From IMG/VR virus record IMGVR_UViG_3300010148_000169, positions 1 to 20,384 of that record: 20,384 nucleotides of DNA; one strand, 5' to 3'. The notes under the pieces are model-generated. The model made no database searches, was not told where the DNA came from, and worked only from the letters and a program-made list of their open reading frames with translations. Shown here one piece after another: positions 4,979-16,562 of this stretch (the stretch's first letter is position 1; each line of letters opens with the position of its first letter). The DNA comes from a virus. The position numbers and the translations under genes are program-made.

Positions 4979-5560
4979 ATGATAGAATTTATAAAAGGAG
5001 AATTTACAGGTTTTGATTGTGGTATTACTACTTGGGACGAGCCAAGAGTTCGCATGTATAAAGGCAAAAAAGTAGTAGGCAGACCAACTCGTGGCTTTGG
5101 CGATAGCCCTTTCGAATATGCTGGTAAACTATATGAGCCTGAGCCGTGGTCTACTCCTATGTATGTAATAAAATCAAACGCTGAACATTTGGTAAGTTAT
5201 AAATTAAAAAAAGAAGTGAAGTTTAATTTTTGTTTGTGTGGATATTATGGACCAGAAGGTAAAGGCATACCGCACCATTCTGATACAGTACCCACTAAAA
5301 ACGATATAGTTTTGTCCGTGTCTCTTGGTGCACCTAGAGTTTTCGAATGGCTTGAGTATGAAAAAGATATAAAAGAAAAAGTAGACACTAGTGAAATAAA
5401 TACTAAGTATGTTCCTAAAAAAAGTTTAACACATTATTTGATGGAAGATGGCGACGTTTTTATATTTGATGGTAAATCTCAAATGAGAAGTACACACGCA
5501 GTATTAGATATGGAAGGTTGTGGAGAGAGAATCAACCTTACCTTCAGAAGTGGCGTATAA
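4979..5560 (+). CDS. AlkB-like 2-oxoglutarate/Fe(II)-dependent dioxygenase
   Basis: The 193-residue protein carries the AlkB-type double-stranded beta-helix signature. The iron ligands are H100 and D102 of an HSD motif and the distal H173 in STHAV. The 2-oxoglutarate-binding C-terminal pattern RxNxTxR runs from R184 to R190. The segment SVSLGAPRVFEW (113-124) and the MEDGDVFIFDG strand (155-165) are also typical. Family members oxidise alkyl groups on nucleic-acid bases, releasing them as aldehydes, so repair of alkylated phage DNA or RNA is the default reading. A role in base modification alongside the cassette at 10134-13265 is possible but unsupported. The start has no Shine-Dalgarno upstream. 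The purine-rich AAAGGAG after the ATG does not precede a usable in-frame start until the ATG at 5054, which would remove 25 residues. Confidence 0.9.
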   Translation: MIEFIKGEFTGFDCGITTWDEPRVRMYKGKKVVGRPTRGFGDSPFEYAGKLYEPEPWSTPMYVIKSNAEHLVSYKLKKEVKFNFCLCGYYGPEGKGIPHHSDTVPTKNDIVLSVSLGAPRVFEWLEYEKDIKEKVDTSEINTKYVPKKSLTHYLMEDGDVFIFDGKSQMRSTHAVLDMEGCGERINLTFRSGV

Positions 5561-7080: not shown

Positions 7081-8595
7081 TTGGAGAATTATTCAAATAA
7101 ATTAAATGAAATATTCAGAGGCTCTAACAGAGCTCATGGTACTTTTACTGTCGACATAGCTACGACAGGTCAGAAAAAATCAGGTAAAGCAAAAACTATA
7201 AAAACTGTAGGGGCTACTACAAATCATTGGGACGACCACCTTAGTGGTAAATCTGGGCTAGGTATTATACCTATAGACGAAGAAAATATGGTACGGTGGG
7301 GAGCCATTGACGTTGACCAATACTCACTAGATTTAAAAAAATTAGTATTAAAGGTAGAAGAATTTGGCTTACCACTTATAGTATGTAGAAGTAAAAGTGG
7401 TGGAGCTCACATATACTGTTTTACTCGAGAGCGAGTAAGTGCAGGAGATATGCAAGATAAATTAAGAGAGATATCTGCAGGATTAGGGTATGGTGGAGTA
7501 GAGATATTTCCTAAGCAAAGGGAGGTATTAGTAGATAGGGGAGACTTAGGCTCATGGTTAAATATGCCTTATTTCGAGGGCGAAAACTCTCTTAGGTACG
7601 CTTTCGATACTAAGGGCGAGGCATTAAGTATAGACGGTTTTATAGAGCATATAGAAAAGAGGTCGTTAAGTTTAGAAGAATTATTAGAGTTAGAAGTACC
7701 TTTATTAGATGACATGAAAGATGGACCACCTTGTTTACAGGTATTACTTAAACAAGGTTTTCCAGAAGGCACAAGAAATAATGGTTTATTTAATGTAGGT
7801 GTATATTTAAAGAAAGCTATACCAGAAACTTGGGAAACTGAGATAGAAGAATATAACAGAAAGTATGTAACACCACCTTTACCAGCCCAAGAAGTTTTAA
7901 CCTTAATAAGTACATTAAGGAAAAAGGAGTATAACTATAAATGCTCTGATGAACCAATCAAGTCTTACTGTAATGTAAGTAAATGTAGGGGCTGTAAGTA
8001 CGGCATCGGCAACGGGAACACGGCTCCTACATTCTCTAGTTTAGCTAAGTTAGATAGTAACCCACCTCTCTGGTTTTTATCTATTGATGATAAAAGATTA
8101 GAGTTAAGCACTGAACAACTTCAAAATCAAATAAAGTTTCAAAGAGTGTGTATGGAGATTTTAAATATAATGCCACAACGTATGAATGATAGGGGTTGGC
8201 AAACTCTTATACAAAATTTAATGGACAATGGTATGGAGATTATAGAGGTAAGCGATGATATTTCTGTAGAGGGGCAGTTTATGGATTTACTCGAATCTTT
8301 TTGCACAGATATGGCACAAGCTAACACAAGAGATGAGATACTTTTAGGTAAGCCCTTTACAGAAGATAACCGTACCTTTTTTAGAATTAAAGATTTAAAA
8401 GAGTATCTTTTAAAACACAGGTTTACAGAAATGGATACTAACAGAATAGCATCTAAGCTGAGAGATATGAAAGCTGAACATAAGTTTTTAAACCTAAAAG
8501 GTAGGGGAGTAAATGTTTGGTCTATAGCTGAGTTTGAATATGGAGCAGATGATTTAGAGCTCGAGCCAACTAACTTTGAGGGGTCAGACATATAA
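7081..8595 (+). CDS. Archaeo-eukaryotic primase (TOTE/phage type)
   Basis: This 504-residue protein is a primase of the archaeo-eukaryotic primase superfamily. The metal-binding DxD is D77-V-D79 (AIDVD), followed by SGGAHIY (106-112), the S/GxH motif that contacts nucleotide. A lysine/arginine-rich strand and an RGDLGSWLNMP segment follow, as in primases of phages and TOTE conflict systems. Downstream, RNNGLFNVGVYLKK (230-243) resembles a PriCT-type helical region. Four cysteines (288, 297, 302, 305) form a likely zinc site. The C-terminal third is unassigned. It probably makes primers for the PolA encoded downstream. Translation must start at TTG 7081: stops block the frame just upstream (TAA at 7039), no other start codon intervenes, and GAGGA lies at 7072-7076. 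Its stop shares one base with the helicase ATG. Confidence 0.85.
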   Translation: MENYSNKLNEIFRGSNRAHGTFTVDIATTGQKKSGKAKTIKTVGATTNHWDDHLSGKSGLGIIPIDEENMVRWGAIDVDQYSLDLKKLVLKVEEFGLPLIVCRSKSGGAHIYCFTRERVSAGDMQDKLREISAGLGYGGVEIFPKQREVLVDRGDLGSWLNMPYFEGENSLRYAFDTKGEALSIDGFIEHIEKRSLSLEELLELEVPLLDDMKDGPPCLQVLLKQGFPEGTRNNGLFNVGVYLKKAIPETWETEIEEYNRKYVTPPLPAQEVLTLISTLRKKEYNYKCSDEPIKSYCNVSKCRGCKYGIGNGNTAPTFSSLAKLDSNPPLWFLSIDDKRLELSTEQLQNQIKFQRVCMEILNIMPQRMNDRGWQTLIQNLMDNGMEIIEVSDDISVEGQFMDLLESFCTDMAQANTRDEILLGKPFTEDNRTFFRIKDLKEYLLKHRFTEMDTNRIASKLRDMKAEHKFLNLKGRGVNVWSIAEFEYGADDLELEPTNFEGSDI

Positions 8596-10088
8596 TGTAT
8601 AACGTGGTTCTTGGTCCACCTGGAACTGGAAAAACAACGTACCTTTTAAATAAGGTAGAAGACTTCTTTGAAAAAGGTACGCCACCAGAAAAACTAGGTT
8701 ATCTTGCGTTTACTAAGAAAGCTGCAAACGAAGCTCTGGCTAGAGCTATGGGCAAGTTTTCTTACACAAGTCAAGAGTTGTGTTATTTTAGAACGCTCCA
8801 CTCTCTCTGTTATCATTGGTTAGGTTTTACTAAGAACGATGTATTAGCTAGGAGTAATCTTAGAGAGTTTAGTAGGACTATAGGTGAGAGAATAAACTCT
8901 GCGTGGGATGGTGAAAATATAATGACACTATCTAGTAAAGGTGATAGAATGTTATTCTTAGAAAATATGGCACGTAATCAATCTATGGGCTATAAAGAAA
9001 TATGGAACAAAGCTAATGATTTAGATATAACTTGGATGCATTTTAATTGGTTTTGTAAAAACTATTCTAAATATAAAAGCCAAAACTTTTTAATTGATTT
9101 TACAGATATGTTAGAGATGTTTATTAATCACGATACCAAACCTAACCTAGATGTATTAATTATAGATGAGGCACAAGACTTATCAGCTTTACAGTGGAAG
9201 TGTGTAGAAAAATTAGCAGAAGGGGTAAAGCATGTGTATATAGCTGGTGATGATGATCAAGCTATCTATAAATGGGCAGGTGCAGATGTAAATCATTTTA
9301 TAAATTTAAAAGGTAACAACATTTATTTAAACCAATCTTACAGAGTACCAAGAAAAGTACATGATGTAGCATTAAGAATAGTAAAAAGAATAGGTAATAG
9401 AAAGGAAAAGGTATGGGAGCCTAGAGAAGAAGAGGGTCAAATAAATATACATATGGATTTTGAACATATTGATGTGTCAGAAGGTGAGTGGTTATTTTTA
9501 GCTAGAAATAATTATCTACTTAATCAAGTAGAGGACTACCTTAAAAAGTCTGGTAGATTTTATCAGAGGTCTGGTAAATCTCCTGTGTCTGATACTTTAA
9601 TTAATGCTATAAAAGATTGGGAAAGGTTAAGGAAAGGTCAGAAAATAGAAGCTGACAATATAAGAAAAATCTACTCGTACATGAGGGCTGGTAAAGGAGT
9701 CAAGAAGGGGTATAAAACATTAAAAAGTTTATTAGGTGATACAGTTTTAAGTATAGGTGATTTAAAAAGAGACTATGGTCTATTAGTAGATAGCATATGG
9801 CATGAATCATTTGACCTTATAGGTATAACTCAAAGAGAGTATTTAATATCTTGTTTAAGGAGAAAAGAAAACTTAAACACATCAAGAATAAAACTAAGCA
9901 CCATACATGCTTCTAAAGGTGGTGAGTGTGACAACGTAGTTTTATTATCTGATATGGCTACTAAGTCTTACGATGAATTATATAGAAACCCTGACAACGA
10001 GTGTAGAAATTTTTATGTAGGTGTGACTAGAACTAAAGAAAACTTACACATAGTGAGGTCTAAAACTAGAAAACAGTTTATTTTTTAG
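8595..10088 (+). CDS. UvrD/Rep-like SF1 DNA helicase
   Basis: The 497-residue protein has clear SF1A motifs. These are Walker A GPPGTGKTT (7-15), motif Ia LAFTKKAANEA, Walker B DEAQD (191-195), motif III GDDDQAIYKWAG starting at 218, and motif IV QSYRVP. Near the C-terminus are TIHASKGGECDNVVL and motif VI FYVGVTRTKE. It is shorter than cellular UvrD (about 720 residues), with reduced 1B and 2B insertions, as common in phage versions. It should unwind DNA with 3'-to-5' polarity. Since no DnaB or gp4-type helicase is in this window, it may work with the adjoining primase in replication as well as in repair. Start and stop overlap in TAATG at 8593-8597, implying translational coupling to the primase. 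Confidence 0.93.
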   Translation: MYNVVLGPPGTGKTTYLLNKVEDFFEKGTPPEKLGYLAFTKKAANEALARAMGKFSYTSQELCYFRTLHSLCYHWLGFTKNDVLARSNLREFSRTIGERINSAWDGENIMTLSSKGDRMLFLENMARNQSMGYKEIWNKANDLDITWMHFNWFCKNYSKYKSQNFLIDFTDMLEMFINHDTKPNLDVLIIDEAQDLSALQWKCVEKLAEGVKHVYIAGDDDQAIYKWAGADVNHFINLKGNNIYLNQSYRVPRKVHDVALRIVKRIGNRKEKVWEPREEEGQINIHMDFEHIDVSEGEWLFLARNNYLLNQVEDYLKKSGRFYQRSGKSPVSDTLINAIKDWERLRKGQKIEADNIRKIYSYMRAGKGVKKGYKTLKSLLGDTVLSIGDLKRDYGLLVDSIWHESFDLIGITQREYLISCLRRKENLNTSRIKLSTIHASKGGECDNVVLLSDMATKSYDELYRNPDNECRNFYVGVTRTKENLHIVRSKTRKQFIF

Positions 10089-10106
10089 GAAGATCCCTAT
10101 ACTTAA

Positions 10107-10122
10107 ACTTTACAAGTAAAGT
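10107..10122. repeat. Palindrome upstream of the modification cassette
   Basis: ACTTTAC (10107-10113) and GTAAAGT (10116-10122) are exact inverse complements around a two-base AA. The site lies in the 45-base gap before the GTG at 10134, next to the TAAAAT (10122-10127) that could be a -10 box. It is a candidate operator for the downstream genes. No convincing -35 partner is seen. Confidence 0.4.
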
Positions 10123-10133
10123 AAAATATTGAC

Positions 10134-10601
10134 GTGAATATATTTAAATTAGACGATAATATACAGACTGCAGCAGAAATGCACTGTGATAAACATGTGT
10201 CTAAAATGATTCTAGAGTCAGCTCAAATGCTTTGTACAAGTTTCTGGCTTAATGATCAAACAGCACCTTACAGACCTGTACATATGAAACACCCTTGTAC
10301 TATATGGTCTGCAGCCAGTTTAGATAATTGGCTATGGCTGAAAGACTTGTTAATTTGTCTCAATGAAGAATTTATGTGGCGATATAATAAAAACGTATGT
10401 CATAAATCATACGATGTTATTATGTCACTGCCTAACCCTTTGATAAAAAGTAAAGGGCTACAAGAACATCCACAATGCATGCCTGATCAATATAAGGTTC
10501 AGGGGAATGCAGTCGAGGCATATAGAAATTATTATATAGGCGAAAAAGTATTTGCGAAATGGACTAAACGAGGTAAACCATCATGGTACAAGATAAAGTA
10601 G
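10134..10601 (+). CDS. Conserved small phage protein with CDKH motif, function unknown
   Basis: The 155-residue protein starts at GTG 10134. The N-terminus MNIFKLDDN, followed by the CDKHVSKMILESAQML stretch (residues 19-34), supports that start. Another conserved-looking block is PVHMKHPCTIWS (47-58), and near the end come CMPDQYKVQGNAVEAYRNYY and FAKWTKRGKPSWY. I recognise this arrangement from uncharacterised phage proteins often found near DNA metabolism genes, but know of no assigned activity. Cys, His and Asp residues spaced along conserved blocks could form a metal or catalytic centre. It overlaps the next gene by 19 bases and heads the modification cassette, so a role with those enzymes is plausible. 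No Shine-Dalgarno is visible. Confidence 0.85.
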   Translation: MNIFKLDDNIQTAAEMHCDKHVSKMILESAQMLCTSFWLNDQTAPYRPVHMKHPCTIWSAASLDNWLWLKDLLICLNEEFMWRYNKNVCHKSYDVIMSLPNPLIKSKGLQEHPQCMPDQYKVQGNAVEAYRNYYIGEKVFAKWTKRGKPSWYKIK

Positions 10602-11443
10602 AAGGGTTTTTTAACTACATAAATGAAAGACACCAAATATATTTAAGGAGAAAAAACGGTCTTCATCCACCGTGGACAGAAGATAAGATATTAAAAACTT
10701 ATAGTTTTTGTAATGTGTTTAGAGAACTAGACACAGTCACAGAATGGGTAAGAACAAACTGGAGAGAGCCTTACTTTGACCACCCTAACTTAGCTTTCTC
10801 AATGTCCGTGGCTCGTCAAATAAATTGGCCATCCACCCTAGAAGAGATAGGTTTCCCTGAGGATTGGCAACCAGAAAAGGTAAAAGCTATAATGCAGGAT
10901 AGAATGGATAGTGGGAAAAAAGTTTACACAGGTGCTTATATGTTGACAGGTACTTTAGGTGGTACTAAAATAGAACAAACAGTAGACAAAATACTTACAC
11001 CTTTATATAATAACCACCCAGAGATAGTCTCTAGTAGTTTAGAAGATACTTGGAAAAATTATCTTCCTTACGCAGGATTTAGTGGATTTATGTCATACGA
11101 AGTTGTTACAGATTTAAGACACACTCATTTATTAAGGAACGCTCGTGATCTTTATACTTGGGCAAATCCAGGTCCAGGAGCAAAGCGTGGATTAAATAGA
11201 ATGAATTTAAGAACGCTTACTTGGGACTCGCACAAACATGACTGGAACGCAGAGATGTATAAACTTTTACAAGTAGCAGATAAATACTTAGAGCCACATG
11301 TACCAAAGCTAGAGATGAGAGAGATAGAGCACAGTTTATGTGAGTTTGATAAATATGAGAGAACTAGGTTAGGTGAGGGTAGACCTAGAGCAAAATATAA
11401 ATACGATAAATACCCAAAATTTAATGAGGCACAATACCTATGA
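10583..11443 (+). CDS. aGPT-PPlase/ADDT-superfamily protein (thymine hypermodification)
   Basis: I assign this 286-residue, all-helical protein to the alpha-glutamyl/putrescinyl-thymine pyrophosphorylase (aGPT-PPlase, amino acid:DNA transferase, HMUDK-helical) group by its N-terminal pattern. That pattern comprises FFNYINERHQIYLRR (9-23), PWTEDKIL, FCNVFRELDTVTEWVR and VARQINWPSTLEEIGFP. Members are related in fold to helix-hairpin-helix DNA glycosylases. Aravind and colleagues proposed that they replace a pyrophosphorylated 5-hydroxymethyluracil in phage DNA with an amine-bearing group. The C-terminal half has a GPGAKRGLNR segment (184-193), reminiscent of nucleic-acid contact loops. The P-loop 5-hmdU DNA kinase that usually works upstream is not in this window. 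The gene overlaps its upstream neighbour by 19 bases and its downstream neighbour by four. The family call is from memory of motif patterns; the clade is uncertain. Confidence 0.75.
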   Translation: MVQDKVEGFFNYINERHQIYLRRKNGLHPPWTEDKILKTYSFCNVFRELDTVTEWVRTNWREPYFDHPNLAFSMSVARQINWPSTLEEIGFPEDWQPEKVKAIMQDRMDSGKKVYTGAYMLTGTLGGTKIEQTVDKILTPLYNNHPEIVSSSLEDTWKNYLPYAGFSGFMSYEVVTDLRHTHLLRNARDLYTWANPGPGAKRGLNRMNLRTLTWDSHKHDWNAEMYKLLQVADKYLEPHVPKLEMREIEHSLCEFDKYERTRLGEGRPRAKYKYDKYPKFNEAQYL

Positions 11444-12216
11444 AAATATATATTCCTACTCGTGGTAGACCCACTAATCAAGAAACTTTAAAATGGTTTC
11501 CCCAATGGATGCAAGCTAATGGTGATGTAACATTAGTTATTGATCATGATGAGCAACACCTGTACACTAAATATCAAAACACACCTAAAATGGTAGTCCC
11601 AGAGGACTGTATAGGCATAGGGGCTAAACGAAAATATATTATAGAGCATAGTGATGACCCCCATATAGTTATGCTAGATGATGATTTACGTTTTTACATT
11701 CGTAAAAGCCCTACCGACTGGCACTTACGATACTTAGAGTCAGATGAGTATCCTGCTATGTTTGGTTTATTAGACGAGTGGCTTAGTCAAGGTTATGCCC
11801 ACGTGGGTGTAAGTGCTAGGGAAGGTAATAATAGGGTAGAAGATTTATCTGTAGAAAATACTCGATACATGAGAGTACTCGCTTATAACTTAAACGAGTT
11901 TCCTGATGACATAGAGTGGGGCAGGACTAGGGTAATGGAAGATTTTGATATAGCTTTACAACTATTGAGAAAAGGTAAAGCATGTAAGGTAAGTTTTTAT
12001 TATGCACAAGGTCAAAAATCATCTAACGCTGACGGTGGTTGTAGTGAGTGGAGAACTATTGATGTTCATAATGAAGGTGCTGAAAGATTACACTCTTTAC
12101 ACCCTACATGCGTTAAGGTAGTAGAGAAACAAACTAAAACTGCTTGGAACGGATTACCTCGTAAGGATGTAATCATAGGTTGGAAAAAAGCATATAAAGA
12201 AGGAATAGGAGAATAA
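11440..12216 (+). CDS. TET-associated-type glycosyltransferase (TAGT), GT-A fold
   Basis: The 258-residue protein begins directly with a GT-A-like strand, KIYIPTRGRP (2-11), followed by VTLVIDHDEQ. GIGAKRKYII is a helix that typically caps the nucleotide-sugar site. The metal-binding acidic motif is D80-D81-D82 in VMLDDDLRF. ARVMEDFDIALQLLRKG-like sequence (MEDFDIALQLL) supplies the second acidic cluster. This matches the TAGT family, described from gene neighbourhoods with base-oxidising or hydroxylating enzymes and proposed to glycosylate hydroxymethylated bases in DNA. Here the hydroxymethyl donor would be the TS-like enzyme encoded next, with which it shares TAATG (12214-12218). The upstream overlap is ATGA at 11440-11443. 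A glycosyltransferase for virion proteins or lipopolysaccharide is less likely given these neighbours. The sugar donor cannot be told. Confidence 0.78.
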   Translation: MKIYIPTRGRPTNQETLKWFPQWMQANGDVTLVIDHDEQHLYTKYQNTPKMVVPEDCIGIGAKRKYIIEHSDDPHIVMLDDDLRFYIRKSPTDWHLRYLESDEYPAMFGLLDEWLSQGYAHVGVSAREGNNRVEDLSVENTRYMRVLAYNLNEFPDDIEWGRTRVMEDFDIALQLLRKGKACKVSFYYAQGQKSSNADGGCSEWRTIDVHNEGAERLHSLHPTCVKVVEKQTKTAWNGLPRKDVIIGWKKAYKEGIGE

Positions 12217-13265
12217 TGCACACATTAAACTGTAGAAATGTAAACGATGCCTTTTTAAGAGGTATGGATTTACTTGACTCGAATGGTCATATAGAAAATA
12301 CTAGAAACGGTAAAGTCATCACTGTAGAAGAACCAGTTACTACAGTTTATGCTAACCCTAGCGAGAGAGTTTTATTTGACCCAGATAGAGACGCTAACCC
12401 CTTTTTCCATTTTATGGAAGGTTTATGGATGCTGGCTGGTTTTAATGACTTAGCTACCATGGAGTACTACAATAAAGGTATGAGTAGATATAGTGATGAT
12501 GGTGAAACATTGTGGGGAGCGTATGGCTGGAGATGGAGAAGTTATTTCAAAGACCCTATATTTAAAGATTTTGCTGGTAAAGACCAAGTAAGAATTATTA
12601 TTGATAGACTTAAACACGACCCTTACGATAGACGCTGTGTCCTACAAATGTGGGACGCTGTGGGCGATTTAGGGCGAGATGGAGCTGACGTACCCTGTAA
12701 TACGACTATATACTTTAAAACTGTACACATAGACGGCTACAGTCCTCGTCTCGATATGACAGTATCAAATAGGTCAAATGATATTATCTGGGGTGCATAT
12801 GGAGCAAACGTGGTACACATGTCAATGTTACATGAGTTCGTAGCTGCAGCAACAGGTATAAGAATGGGTAAGTATTATCAAGTGAGTAATAATTATCATG
12901 CGTACTTAAATGTATATGAGCCTATGAGAGAAAAATTACTACAAATAGACTCTTTTGATTATTACACAATAAAGCTATTAATTAATCACAATCCGTATAA
13001 ACTAGATGAAGTAAATCCCTATCCAATGGTAAGTGTAGACTTTCGTGATTGGGAAGCAGACTTAATTATGTTTTTTACTAGAAAACCTTTTCAGCAAATG
13101 GAATTCAAAGATCCATTTTTCACTGACGTCGCAGTACCTATACAAGATGCTTGGTATCTCTCTAAAGAGGAGAGTAAGGAAGAAGCACTTATAGAAATAC
13201 AACATTGTAAAGCTGATGATTGGATGGAAGCTTGCTTTAGATGGCTATCTAGAAGAATAAAATAA
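12216..13265 (+). CDS. Thymidylate synthase homologue, probable dUMP hydroxymethylase-type
   Basis: This 349-residue protein has the thymidylate synthase fold signature. It carries the catalytic Cys161 (VPCNT), phosphate-binding RR at 139-140, NRSND (185-189) and the H228-x-Y230 pair, plus E68 at the Glu58 position of E. coli TS. Several active-site details differ from ordinary TS. The residue after Cys161 is Asn where TS has His. The GLPFN loop reads GAYGAN (193-198). By-eye alignment puts a non-Trp residue (about 90-92) where TS has Trp80. Asn198 near the Asn177 position would fit a uracil base rather than cytosine. Together with the glycosyltransferase and aGPT-PPlase-like neighbours this suggests a hydroxymethylase making 5-hydroxymethyl-dUMP. 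Ordinary dTMP synthesis remains possible. AGGAG (12207-12211) precedes the ATG. Confidence 0.85.
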   Translation: MHTLNCRNVNDAFLRGMDLLDSNGHIENTRNGKVITVEEPVTTVYANPSERVLFDPDRDANPFFHFMEGLWMLAGFNDLATMEYYNKGMSRYSDDGETLWGAYGWRWRSYFKDPIFKDFAGKDQVRIIIDRLKHDPYDRRCVLQMWDAVGDLGRDGADVPCNTTIYFKTVHIDGYSPRLDMTVSNRSNDIIWGAYGANVVHMSMLHEFVAAATGIRMGKYYQVSNNYHAYLNVYEPMREKLLQIDSFDYYTIKLLINHNPYKLDEVNPYPMVSVDFRDWEADLIMFFTRKPFQQMEFKDPFFTDVAVPIQDAWYLSKEESKEEALIEIQHCKADDWMEACFRWLSRRIK

Positions 13266-13277
13266 ATAGGAGAATCT

Positions 13278-13964
13278 ATGATTGGTCAATGGTCGTATAG
13301 TCGTCTTAGTTGTTACGAGAAGTGTCCTAAACAAGCTGAGTTTAAATTTATAAAGAAAATGAAAGAGCCTGGAAGTCCTGCCATGGATCGTGGTAAAGAT
13401 ATGCATAAATTATGCGAGGAATATATTCGTGGTAGGTTTGATGAACTACCTAAAGAACTCAAAGAGTTTGAAGAAGCGTTTGTAAAATTAAAAGAACTAC
13501 ATGAATATGGTCAGGTAACATGTGAGAGTGACTGGGCTATAACTAAAGATTGGGATCAAACAGGTTGGTTTGATAATGATACTTGGGGCAGGGCTAAAGT
13601 AGATGCTTTCGTCTATGACGAAGGAAACTCAACAGAAGCTAGAGTCATTGATTTTAAAACAGGTAGATATGAAGGTAATCAAGATGCACATAAAGAACAA
13701 TGTGAATTATATGGAGGAATAGCTTTAAAGAGATACCCTGAGTTAGAAAAAATTATCACGGAAATGTGGTATTTAGATCATGGTAAGATAGATAGATACA
13801 TTTATACTCAAGAGAGTATAAATATCAAAAGAGATAAAATACACATAAGAGCTGTAGAAATGACAGAAGCTACAGAGTTTCCTGCTAAACCTTCTAAGTG
13901 GAAGTGTAAGTGGTGTTATTTCGGTAAGCAGAATATGTGCAGAGAAAAATATGAGGAGTATTAA
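13278..13964 (+). CDS. RecB-like PD-(D/E)XK exonuclease with probable Fe-S cluster
   Basis: The 228-residue protein matches the PDDEXK_1/Cas4/RecB nuclease group. It opens with WSYSRLSCYEKCP (5-17), then GKDMH with H43, KVDAF (D109), VIDFKTG (D125, K127) and QCELY (Q141, Y145). These are, in order, RecB motifs I, II, III and QxxxY. Cysteines C210, C213 and C221 near the C-terminus, with C12 or C16 at the N-terminus, are arranged like the four ligands of the iron-sulfur cluster in Cas4 and AddB. It likely resects DNA ends in recombination or host DNA breakdown. AGGAGA precedes the ATG at good spacing, and the gene follows the TS-like gene by 12 bases. Confidence 0.88.
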   Translation: MIGQWSYSRLSCYEKCPKQAEFKFIKKMKEPGSPAMDRGKDMHKLCEEYIRGRFDELPKELKEFEEAFVKLKELHEYGQVTCESDWAITKDWDQTGWFDNDTWGRAKVDAFVYDEGNSTEARVIDFKTGRYEGNQDAHKEQCELYGGIALKRYPELEKIITEMWYLDHGKIDRYIYTQESINIKRDKIHIRAVEMTEATEFPAKPSKWKCKWCYFGKQNMCREKYEEY

Positions 13965-13966
13965 TT

Positions 13967-14272
13967 ATGAGTGGATCTAATTTTAATTTAATAAAACTAC
14001 TAGCACACACTGATGTAGAAAAGCTAGAGGAAGCCCAAATAAGTTATGGTGATAGTTGGCGTTCTCGTGGTGGTGTTGGTGCGTTTATGATGTTAGCTAG
14101 AAAATTTGATAGGATAGAAAATCAGTGTAAAAAGAACGGCTACGACATATTTAAAACTATAGCAGATGACCCTAGTTCTACAGGTATATTAGATGATATA
14201 CAGGATTTAAGGAGATACTTGTTATTAGTAGAAGGTCACATGACTAACCGAAAAGAGTATATCGGTAAGTAA
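13967..14272 (+). CDS. Nmad1/DUF1599-like small protein
   Basis: The 101-residue protein has the pattern YGDSWRSRGGVGAFMMLARKFDRIEN (27-52), then DDIQDLRRYLLLVEGHM (76-92). I associate this with the DUF1599 family, renamed nucleotide modification associated domain 1 (Nmad1), a small all-helical family near MazG-type NTP pyrophosphohydrolases. If right, it may act on nucleotides, for example by clearing or sensing a modified or unmodified precursor. The catalytic activity is not established to my knowledge. GAGGA precedes the ATG by about nine bases. The last A of its TAA is the first base of the polymerase ATG. This location between a modification cassette and PolA fits the family's name. The family call is moderate. 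Confidence 0.7.
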   Translation: MSGSNFNLIKLLAHTDVEKLEEAQISYGDSWRSRGGVGAFMMLARKFDRIENQCKKNGYDIFKTIADDPSSTGILDDIQDLRRYLLLVEGHMTNRKEYIGK

Positions 14273-16143
14273 TGGATCAAAAAAGTTTCTTTCCACCTGA
14301 GTCCGACTGGACACCCCCAGATAGTTTCCCTGATTTAACACAAGCTAAAGAGATAGCTATTGATTTAGAAACTAGAGACCCATTACTCATGACTCATGGT
14401 CCGAGCTGGGCTTGTAAGCAAGGAGAAATAATTGGAGTAGGTATAGCTACAGAAGGTTGGAAAGGTTATTTCCCTGTGGCTCATCATTATGGGGCTAATC
14501 TAGATAGAGGAGTAGTTTATAAATGGTTAGCTAAACAGTTAGAGCATGACAACGATAAAGTATTTCATAACGCACAGTATGATTTAGGGTGGCTTACTTA
14601 TGAGGGCTTTACTGTTAATGGTACTGTACAAGACACTATGATTGCTGCACCTTTATTAAATGAAAATGAAAGGAGATACTCTCTCAATAGTTTAGGCGAA
14701 AGGTTTATGGGTGAATTAAAAGATGAAAAACTTTTAACAGAGGCAGCAGAAGCATTTGGGCTAAACCCTAAATCAGAGATGTATAAATTAGAGCCTAAAT
14801 ATGTTGGCATGTATGGTGAGCAAGACGCTGACCTTACCTACAGGTTATGGCAAAATTTAAAAGAAAAAATAAAAGAAGAAGAGGTTAGTGAAATATATAA
14901 ACTAGAATCATCTTTAATAAGGGTACTTATAGAGATGAGGAGACGTGGTGTAAGAGTCGATTTAGATAAAGCTGATAGAGTTAGTCAGGAGTTAAAGAGT
15001 AAAGAACAAAAGATATTAAGTCAAATAAAAAATTGGTATGGTATTACCCCTGACTTATGGGCAGCAGCATCAGTCGCACAAGTATTTGATAGAGCTGGTT
15101 TAGATTATCCTAGATCACCAAAACTAAATGCACCGAGTTTTACTTCTGCTTGGCTAGAGGCACATGACCATAAATTACCATTAGCGATAGCTAGGGCTAG
15201 AAAATTCAATAAAGCTAGAACTACTTTTATAGATAAAATGATTTTAGACCATGAGGTAGACGGTAGAATACATGGAGAACTACACCCCTTAAGGTCAGAT
15301 GATGGAGGTACAGTCACAGGAAGGTTTAGTTGTAGCAATCCTAACCTACAACAAGTACCAGCTCGTGATCCAGAAATAGGTAGTTTGATAAGAAGTTTAT
15401 TTATACCAGAAGAAGACTGTCACTGGGGTTGTTTTGATTACTCTCAACAAGAGCCTAGACTTACAGTACATTACTCGCTACTTACTAAACAAGAGGGTGC
15501 ACAAGAGGCAGCAGATGCTTACACAGATGATGCAGACTTTCATCAGATAGTAGCAGACATGGCTAATATAAGTCGTAAGGAAGCTAAGAATATAAATCTA
15601 GGTTTGAGTTATGGTATGGGTAAAGATAAACTCATACGTCAATTAGGTATTAGTGAAGAAGAGGGTCAAATACTATTTGATCAGTATCATGAACGAGTAC
15701 CTTTTATCCGTGGTCTACGAGATACTTGTGCTAGGTTAGGGTCAAATAGGGGTTATATAAAGACTATCCTAGGACGTAAGTGTCGCTTTAACCTTTACGA
15801 ACCTATGTCGTATAGGGATACCCCTTACCCCTACGAAAAAGCCCTCGAAACGTATGGAAAAGGGCTTAAAAGGGCTTTTACATATAAAGCTATGAATCGA
15901 CTTATACAAGGGTCAGCAGCAGACATGACTAAAAAAGCTATGTTAGATTTACACAAAGAAGGCATACTCGCACATACTCAAGTGCATGACGAGTTAAATA
16001 TATCTGTTAAAGATAAACAGGAATGTGAAAAAGTCATAGAGGTTATGAGAGACTGTGTAAAAATCAATGTACCTAATAAAGTAGATGCTGAGATAGGTAA
16101 GAGCTGGGGAGAGATAGAAAATTATAAAGATTATTTTAAATGA
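14272..16143 (+). CDS. polA: Family A DNA polymerase with 3'-5' exonuclease (Leu762 type)
   Basis: The 623-residue polymerase has an intact proofreading domain: ExoI D31-x-E33 (AIDLE), ExoII N100 to D104 (NAQYDLGWL) and ExoIII Y181 to D185 (YGEQD). The polymerase domain has motif A DYSQQEPRL from D389, motif B RKEAKNINLGLSYG from R435 to G448, and motif C H572-D573-E574 (QVHDEL). There is no 5'-3' exonuclease domain, as usual for phage enzymes. In motif B the residue matching E. coli Phe762 is Leu443. In viral ecology studies, Phe, Tyr or Leu at this position has been tied to replication speed and lifestyle, with Leu linked to slower or temperate replication. It should copy the phage genome, using any hydroxymethylated precursor made upstream. 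Start overlaps the previous stop; the end overlaps the next start (ATGA). Confidence 0.96.
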   Translation: MDQKSFFPPESDWTPPDSFPDLTQAKEIAIDLETRDPLLMTHGPSWACKQGEIIGVGIATEGWKGYFPVAHHYGANLDRGVVYKWLAKQLEHDNDKVFHNAQYDLGWLTYEGFTVNGTVQDTMIAAPLLNENERRYSLNSLGERFMGELKDEKLLTEAAEAFGLNPKSEMYKLEPKYVGMYGEQDADLTYRLWQNLKEKIKEEEVSEIYKLESSLIRVLIEMRRRGVRVDLDKADRVSQELKSKEQKILSQIKNWYGITPDLWAAASVAQVFDRAGLDYPRSPKLNAPSFTSAWLEAHDHKLPLAIARARKFNKARTTFIDKMILDHEVDGRIHGELHPLRSDDGGTVTGRFSCSNPNLQQVPARDPEIGSLIRSLFIPEEDCHWGCFDYSQQEPRLTVHYSLLTKQEGAQEAADAYTDDADFHQIVADMANISRKEAKNINLGLSYGMGKDKLIRQLGISEEEGQILFDQYHERVPFIRGLRDTCARLGSNRGYIKTILGRKCRFNLYEPMSYRDTPYPYEKALETYGKGLKRAFTYKAMNRLIQGSAADMTKKAMLDLHKEGILAHTQVHDELNISVKDKQECEKVIEVMRDCVKINVPNKVDAEIGKSWGEIENYKDYFK

Positions 16144-16562
16144 AGATAGGTATAACATTTAGTGCTTTTGATTTATTGCACGCAGGACATGTTGCTATGT
16201 TAGAAGAAGCTAAAGGTGTCTGTGACTATTTAATTGTAGGACTACACACTGACCCTAGCGTAGAAAGATCAAATAAAAATAAACCTGTGCAAAGTTTGAT
16301 AGAAAGACAAATACAATTAAAAGGTTGTAGATATGTGGACGAAATAATTTGTTATGAAACAGAGCAAGATTTATTGAACCTACTGAATATGGTAAGGTGG
16401 GATATAAGAATAATAGGGGAGGAATATAAAGAAAAAGCATTTACTGGTTGGACAGAGTTTAATAACTCATGCTCTAATAAAGAAATTTATTATAACTCTA
16501 GACAACATGAATTTTCTAGTACTTCTTTAAGGGAGAATATAACAAATGAAACGGCAAGATAA
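16140..16562 (+). CDS. Cytidylyltransferase-fold nucleotidyltransferase
   Basis: The 140-residue protein has the class of nucleotidyltransferase signature seen in glycerol-3-phosphate cytidylyltransferase. The HxGH motif is H14-A-G-H17 after a GITFSAFDLLH strand, GLHTDPS follows the second strand, and the C-terminal SSTSLRE (126-132) matches the ISSTxIR motif. Such enzymes join CTP or ATP to a phosphorylated alcohol, sugar or cofactor precursor. The acceptor cannot be told. An activated sugar or polyol for the upstream glycosyltransferase is one possibility; tail or surface decoration is another. It overlaps the polymerase stop by four bases (ATGA, 16140-16143) and the next gene by 17. Confidence 0.82.
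   Translation: MKIGITFSAFDLLHAGHVAMLEEAKGVCDYLIVGLHTDPSVERSNKNKPVQSLIERQIQLKGCRYVDEIICYETEQDLLNLLNMVRWDIRIIGEEYKEKAFTGWTEFNNSCSNKEIYYNSRQHEFSSTSLRENITNETAR

Follow-up and report, generated by a model that had tools for sequence, protein, structure and literature searches.

Characterized thymidine hypermodifications, those of phages M6, ViI and phiW-14, proceed via phosphorylation of 5-hydroxymethyldeoxyuridine (5-hmdU) in DNA. The viral DNA studied here, IMG/VR record IMGVR_UViG_3300010148_000169 (all 20,384 nucleotides, referred to as the window), carries at positions 10134-13265 a cassette that joins an HMUDK_hel protein, a TAGT glycosyltransferase and a thymidylate synthase (TS)-family enzyme with no kinase gene in view. 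What modification would such a cassette make? We propose, with a probability of roughly 0.6, that it is a kinase-free thymidine hypermodification cassette in which a sugar replaces the amino-acid branch.

Gene families of the cassette

The cassette consists of four overlapping plus-strand open reading frames (ORFs; protein lengths in amino acids, aa), whose coordinates were checked in the sequence:

10134..10601, plus strand, GTG start: 155-aa "CDKH" protein, distantly Pyr_excise-like (T4 endonuclease V-like), phrog_624; accessory
10583..11443, plus strand, ATG start: 286-aa HMUDK_hel protein, PF18723, all-helical; predicted 5-hmdU-DNA recognition/presentation module
11440..12216, plus strand, ATG start: 258-aa TAGT glycosyltransferase, PF20691, with its LDDDL DxD motif intact
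12216..13265, plus strand, ATG start: 349-aa TS-family enzyme; predicted dUMP 5-hydroxymethylase

The first two ORFs overlap by 19 nucleotides, the second and third are coupled by an ATGA overlap, and the third and fourth by TAATG; the sequence thus bears out the positions and couplings given in an initial annotation of this DNA. These frames are not chance ORFs, because three of them match Pfam families and the 155-aa protein matches a PHROG at an E value of 4.3e-46. The order HMUDK_hel, TAGT, TS (HEL-TAGT-TS) is conserved across dozens of independent contigs.

The 286-aa protein had been described as ADDT-like. It instead matches the Pfam family HMUDK_hel (PF18723; E value, 6.5e-46; 157.4 bits against a cut-off of 25; positions 4 to 277 of 281) and falls in phrog_2396; we take this family to be the one that the literature calls aG/PT-PPlase clade 1. 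Pfam holds HMUDK_hel, the kinase HMUDK_HMUD1 (PF18748) and ADDT (aGPT-PPlase2; PF18724) as three separate models, and M6-like phages encode ADDT as a protein distinct from HMUDK_hel. Identification of the 286-aa protein as ADDT was rejected, as hhalign aligned just 29 columns of HMUDK_hel with ADDT at a probability of 7.6 and PF18724 was not matched. The initial picture of three co-transcribed DNA modification families therefore stands in outline, with this one label corrected.

The 258-aa protein is a TAGT, as first annotated (PF20691; 3.8e-23; 82.9 bits against a cut-off of 27.5; phrog_842, 1.5e-50), and belongs to the family of the T2/T6 beta-glucosyl-hydroxymethylcytosine (HMC) alpha-glucosyltransferase. 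Its GT-A DxD motif is intact (LDDDL at residues 79-83), and D80-D82 and D168 are invariant. Sequence searches of the PDB returned no match for either TAGT or HMUDK_hel.

The 349-aa protein matches Thymidylat_synt (1.1e-22) and phrog_5131 (8.2e-113) and is 44% identical to the M6 enzyme and 47% identical to that of YuA. It keeps the catalytic Cys161, Arg186 and a dUMP-type Asn198. This asparagine corresponds in the alignment to Asn177 of E. coli ThyA; around the same site, phage Moon's T-even dCMP hydroxymethylase carries Asp instead. Because Cys161 and Asn198 are kept and the protein is orthologous to the M6/YuA enzymes, its sequence favors dUMP rather than dCMP as the substrate, and we predict, in keeping with its first annotation as a TS-like hydroxymethylase, that it is an M6-type dUMP 5-hydroxymethylase.

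A cytosine route has to be weighed at this point, in which the TS-like enzyme would make 5-hydroxymethyl-dCMP, TAGT would glycosylate 5-hydroxymethylcytosine (5-hmC) in the T-even manner, and HMUDK_hel would have some other role. T-even relatives of TAGT do adjoin a dCMP hydroxymethylase, and in the PDB the TS protein is matched best by CMP 5-hydroxymethylases (about 67 bits, in a broad family). The route is nonetheless very unlikely given Asn198, which is shared with dUMP enzymes and replaced by Asp in the T-even enzyme, the orthology to the dUMP-type enzyme of M6/YuA, and the ties of HMUDK_hel elsewhere to 5-hmdU systems.

We regard as highly improbable, too, that the gene encodes a conventional thymidylate synthase serving nucleotide supply, with TAGT acting on a target other than DNA. 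Supplying dTMP is a common job of phage TS genes; this protein, however, is nearest to the M6/YuA type and not to cellular TS, its gene is coupled to TAGT by TAATG, and both genes keep company with HMUDK_hel across one TAGT subgroup. In this subgroup, that of the window, HMUDK_hel and TS were present in 55/55 untruncated loci and the kinase in 0/55 (loci not dereplicated).

Kinase and ADDT genes and the partners of HMUDK_hel

The window is contained whole, at 99.88% identity, in a 60,247-bp IMG/VR contig whose gene layout, with functions judged by eye, is that of a tailed phage genome. The window's DNA polymerase is 50.4% identical to that of 023Pt_psg01, 50% to that of DSL-LC04 and 48% to those of Pelagibacter phages HTVC023P and HTVC027P, and gene order is shared with DSL-LC04. 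Because polymerase identity and genome layout match, the source is, as judged from these sequences, a marine HTVC023P-type pelagiphage. HMUDK_hel was not found in the published 023Pt_psg01 and DSL-LC04 genomes, so the cassette is limited to some lineages.

Neither the PF18748 kinase nor PF18724 ADDT was found in the window, in the 60,247-bp contig, in 20 other first-fetched relatives (contigs of up to 65 kb) or in the complete genomes of phages LuckyBarnes and Casey. The initial observation of no kinase in view thus extends to the longer contig and the 20 relatives; profile searches placed the TAGT and TS proteins in the expected families, while the ADDT and kinase models went unmatched and HMUDK_hel was matched instead. 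In a whole-contig Pfam search, PF18748 matched no contig selected for a glycosyltransferase or methyltransferase cassette; the same search matched five of six kinase-cassette contigs, the sixth being an 8.9-kb fragment. The Tet_JBP dioxygenase (PF12851) had no match in the window, four contigs of about 60 kb or LuckyBarnes.

Beside polA, the window carries orthologs of two genes of Pseudomonas phages M6 and YuA, which make 5-(2-aminoethyl)deoxyuridine (5-NedU): those for HMUDK_hel and the TS-type dUMP hydroxymethylase. In place of the P-loop 5-hmdU DNA kinase, ADDT and tailoring enzymes of those phages, it has TAGT. The amino-acid pathway set of M6 and ViI (TS-type hydroxymethylase, kinase and ADDT) is therefore incomplete here, lacking the kinase and ADDT. 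A closer parallel is the cultured Brevibacterium phage LuckyBarnes (NC_047851), whose order TS-TAGT-TAGT-HMUDK_hel unites the same three families, free of kinase and ADDT; it differs in having two TAGT copies, TS first and a longer TS protein, with protein identities of 25-31%.

HMUDK_hel loci were surveyed in IMG/VR scans centered on this family (a first scan and four more) and in reference phages. The 337 loci were reduced to 158 at <90% identity and to 123 flanked on each side by 4 kb or more; partners were labeled from genes within 6 kb of HMUDK_hel, and loci carry L numbers. The partner was TAGT in 45 loci, another likely glycosyltransferase (GT) in 20, the kinase alone in 27 and a Methyltransf_23 protein in 17; three loci had a kinase plus a GT, and 11 had no partner. 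The other-GT loci comprise 11 GT-B loci, with Pfam-supported reference members, and 9 labeled GTC, by profile similarity to GT-B proteins (probability, 95), or GTD, by eye.

Kinase/ADDT and glycosyltransferase cassettes were largely mutually exclusive. Across the 123 loci, one had both the kinase and TAGT/GT-B, 29 only the kinase, 56 only the GT and 37 neither (Fisher P = 7e-9, kinship ignored); ADDT was present in 20 of the 27 kinase-alone loci and accompanied TAGT in none of the 123. In the three "kinase plus GT" loci (L336, L337 and L339), the kinase scored weakly, and PF18748 matched none of their contigs at an E value of 0.1; the genes so labeled are probably other kinases.

These counts bear on the suggestion in the initial annotation that a sugar is joined to an amine-type substituent or competes with it. 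In its fuller form, the amine branch would also be active, with HMUDK_hel or an unrecognized enzyme installing the amino group and TAGT placing a sugar on or beside it. HMUDK_hel does constantly adjoin the kinase and ADDT in M6-like phages; against this, neither gene occurs in the 60-kb relatives or LuckyBarnes, ADDT and TAGT never occur together, and, since ADDT is absent, an amine substituent has no known enzyme here. We consider this reading quite unlikely.

HMUDK_hel has changed partners repeatedly, sometimes within the same gene slot. On a quick IQ-TREE tree of the 123 HMUDK_hel proteins, partner labels cluster, yet 15 changes are needed for TAGT, 12 for the kinase and 12 for other GTs; the starred branches by themselves require no fewer than 8, 7 and 8, respectively. 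Sister loci with an SH-like approximate likelihood ratio test (SH-aLRT) value of 100 include L197 (GTC-HEL-TS-HD) and L251 (kinase-HEL-TS-HD), which swap partners in one slot, L107 (kinase, ADDT) and L116 (GT-B), and L111 (GT-B) and L114 (TAGT, TAGT). L100 (GT-B) is nested in a TAGT clade, again at 100.

A proposed sugar branch and the possible role of HMUDK_hel

In the pathway that we infer, the TS-family enzyme would convert dUMP to 5-hydroxymethyl-dUMP, which host or phage kinases would phosphorylate further and the phage family A polymerase would incorporate into DNA. With a nucleotide sugar as donor, TAGT would then glycosylate 5-hmdU in DNA at its hydroxymethyl group, and the product would be a base-J-like 5-(glycosyloxymethyl)uracil that could shield the genome from nucleases. 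HMUDK_hel would bind 5-hmdU in DNA or present it to the transferring enzyme, which would be TAGT here and the kinase in M6-like phages.

This last role is the weakest step, to which we give slightly less than an even chance, and it is suggested by genomic context. HMUDK_hel of the window is 41-43% identical to M6/YuA-type proteins that neighbor the kinase. In YuA (gp13) and Sonora, the kinase is a separate gene immediately before HMUDK_hel, and in Bacillus phage SBSphiC the two are fused in one 636-aa protein. TS and HMUDK_hel might thus form a chassis on which the partner sets the decoration: the kinase and ADDT would give phosphate and then amino acid, TAGT or GT-B a sugar. More generally, HMUDK_hel may be no kinase domain at all and instead an enzyme-neutral 5-hmdU-DNA presenting subunit whose partner is swapped time and again among P-loop kinase, TAGT (GT-A), GT-B enzymes and methyltransferases while the dUMP hydroxymethylase is kept, giving aminated, glycosylated and methylated thymines; we advance this wider scheme tentatively, as less probable than its opposite.

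HMUDK_hel could alternatively catalyze a step common to all cassettes, for example, returning some of the 5-hmdU to thymine or carrying out a transferase step. Seven polar residues (R47, D50, D177, C253, E254, K257 and R260) are invariant across 117 HMUDK_hel sequences, and constant co-occurrence with TS would fit a shared chemical step; fusion to, or direct adjacency with, the modifying enzyme in several systems fits a partner role instead, and no enzyme fold was matched. We judge a catalytic role unlikely. A separate idea, that the protein resembles a helix-hairpin-helix DNA glycosylase through a GFSGFMSYEVVTDL motif seen by eye, was set aside, as the Foldseek matches (RuvA and a queuine salvage enzyme) were insignificant.

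Several points weigh against the presenting role of HMUDK_hel and the sugar branch. The all-helical structure model of HMUDK_hel (pLDDT, 95.5) has no significant fold match in the PDB, DNA-binding proteins and enzymes included. The complete genome ctUhy936 has TAGT, TS-like and HD-protein genes without HMUDK_hel, which may therefore be dispensable for TAGT. In T-even phages, the target of TAGT is a sugar that 5-hmC already carries and not the hydroxymethyl group (PMC13216743), so direct action of TAGT on 5-hmdU is an extrapolation. For a nucleotide-sugar pathway, the window yielded nothing beyond one cytidylyltransferase-like gene. The Fisher tests carry no correction for phylogeny, and the sample is skewed toward marine phages near the queries.

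The T2/T6 system of HMC gentiobiosylation places the same GT family (PF20691) beside a TS-family hydroxymethylase, for example, in Citrobacter phage Moon, but it is cytosine based, requires a first GT-B glucosyltransferase and has no HMUDK_hel. The predicted end product of the window, a glycosylated 5-hydroxymethyluracil in DNA, resembles kinetoplastid base J. In base J synthesis, JBP dioxygenases oxidize T in DNA; both that system and TET/JBP-TAGT systems thus differ from the window, where no Tet_JBP gene was found.

The gene combination itself is not new. In HTVC023P-type pelagiphages, TS has been reported near polA and close to alpha-glutamyl/putrescinyl thymine pyrophosphorylase clade 1 (PMC9599517, mSystems 2022), and the cluster described there (TS, aG/PT-PPlase1 and beta-glucosyl-HMC-alpha-GT) has the same gene set, phage group and polA proximity as the window; a link to thymidine hypermodification and the extra glycosyltransferase were already noted. 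Our analysis adds a test for kinase and ADDT absence, the exclusivity and swapping of partners, and a sugar-branch mechanism, none of which was found in the portion of that paper drawn on here. The novelty first suggested for the cassette accordingly shrinks to a kinase-free variant of the 5-hmdU pathway. Solitary TAGT homologs, which may encode novel transferases, have been reported in 288 of 753 phage genomes (PMC13216743, NAR 2026).

If the sugar branch is real, marine phages carry sugar-decorated thymine via a widespread kinase-free branch, and a family named after a kinase has a more general role. The partner pattern would offer a simple genomic rule for predicting the type of thymine modification in uncultured phages, and the prediction is directly testable in LuckyBarnes because it has a cultured host.

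Neighboring genes and variant loci

Downstream of the cassette lie three further genes:

13278..13964, plus strand: PDDEXK_1 exonuclease (Cas4-like), PF12705 1.3e-16; neighbor, outside the pathway
13967..14272, plus strand: 101-aa protein, unmatched in Pfam and PHROG; most relatives keep it close to TS
14272..16143, plus strand: family A DNA polymerase, with about 50% identity to the polymerases of HTVC023P-type phages; the modified dNTP is presumably its substrate

By eye, the 101-aa protein looks similar to the C-terminal extension found on TS in LuckyBarnes. Directly after polA, positions 16140-16562 encode a cytidylyltransferase-like protein (PF01467, 1.2e-14; phrog_7878, HldE-like) that could make the nucleotide-sugar donor. 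The window also encodes an AlkB-like 2-oxoglutarate-Fe(II) oxygenase (4979-5560; 1.6e-14; not Tet_JBP), which is cassette-adjacent in many relatives, and a primase-like protein (7081-8595) with an AEP-TOTE match (3.3e-10), the primase domain of TOTE conflict systems.

The 155-aa CDKH protein, initially counted as part of the cassette, is not a core member, being missing from HEL-TAGT-TS loci L057-L059, L073, L075, L078 and L082. It has no Pfam match of its own, and its model (pLDDT, 94) found no PDB fold match; Pyr_excise (PF03013) is matched by 31 of 40 relatives (best, 8.8e-11), with the window's member not reaching an E value of 0.1. Its likeness to T4 endonuclease V, guessed from the C terminus, is thus backed by its relatives' Pfam matches and not by fold, and we take it as a candidate distant Pyr_excise relative via its family. 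The family is frequent in cyanophages and T4-like phages and is widespread where this cassette is lacking; CDKH is perhaps a neighboring repair protein.

Other loci vary the gene set. A complete 40-kb phage (L025, MW202897) has TAGT, TS-like and HD genes at 9998-12296 and no HMUDK_hel. In the 17 Methyltransf_23 loci (pelagiphage-type L015-L022, L260, L283 and relatives), that protein immediately precedes HMUDK_hel and TS, and neither the kinase nor TAGT is present; the product might be O-methylated 5-hmdU or some other methylated species. Accessory genes among the loci encode a YfbR-like 5'-deoxynucleotidase, a dUTPase-like protein (by eye), FkbM methyltransferases, radical SAM-SPASM proteins, a mannose-6-phosphate isomerase/cytidylyltransferase protein, PIG-L deacetylase, APS kinase and sulfotransferases, which fit nucleotide or sugar chemistry. 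L112 (1-4796) combines HMUDK_hel with a truncated GT, PIG-L deacetylase, APS kinase, a sulfotransferase-like protein and TS, which suggests a deacetylated, sulfated sugar on 5-hmdU. L107 (6532-14123), with HMUDK_hel, ADDT and kinase, also has genes for a sulfotransferase (8.4e-15) and a radical SAM-like protein ahead of TS, an amine branch in which sulfation is possible. In L306 (8816-12746), HMUDK_hel is followed by a mannose-6-phosphate isomerase/cytidylyltransferase fusion, a GT-B-like protein, radical SAM and TS, placing a phage-encoded sugar-nucleotide step beside the GT.

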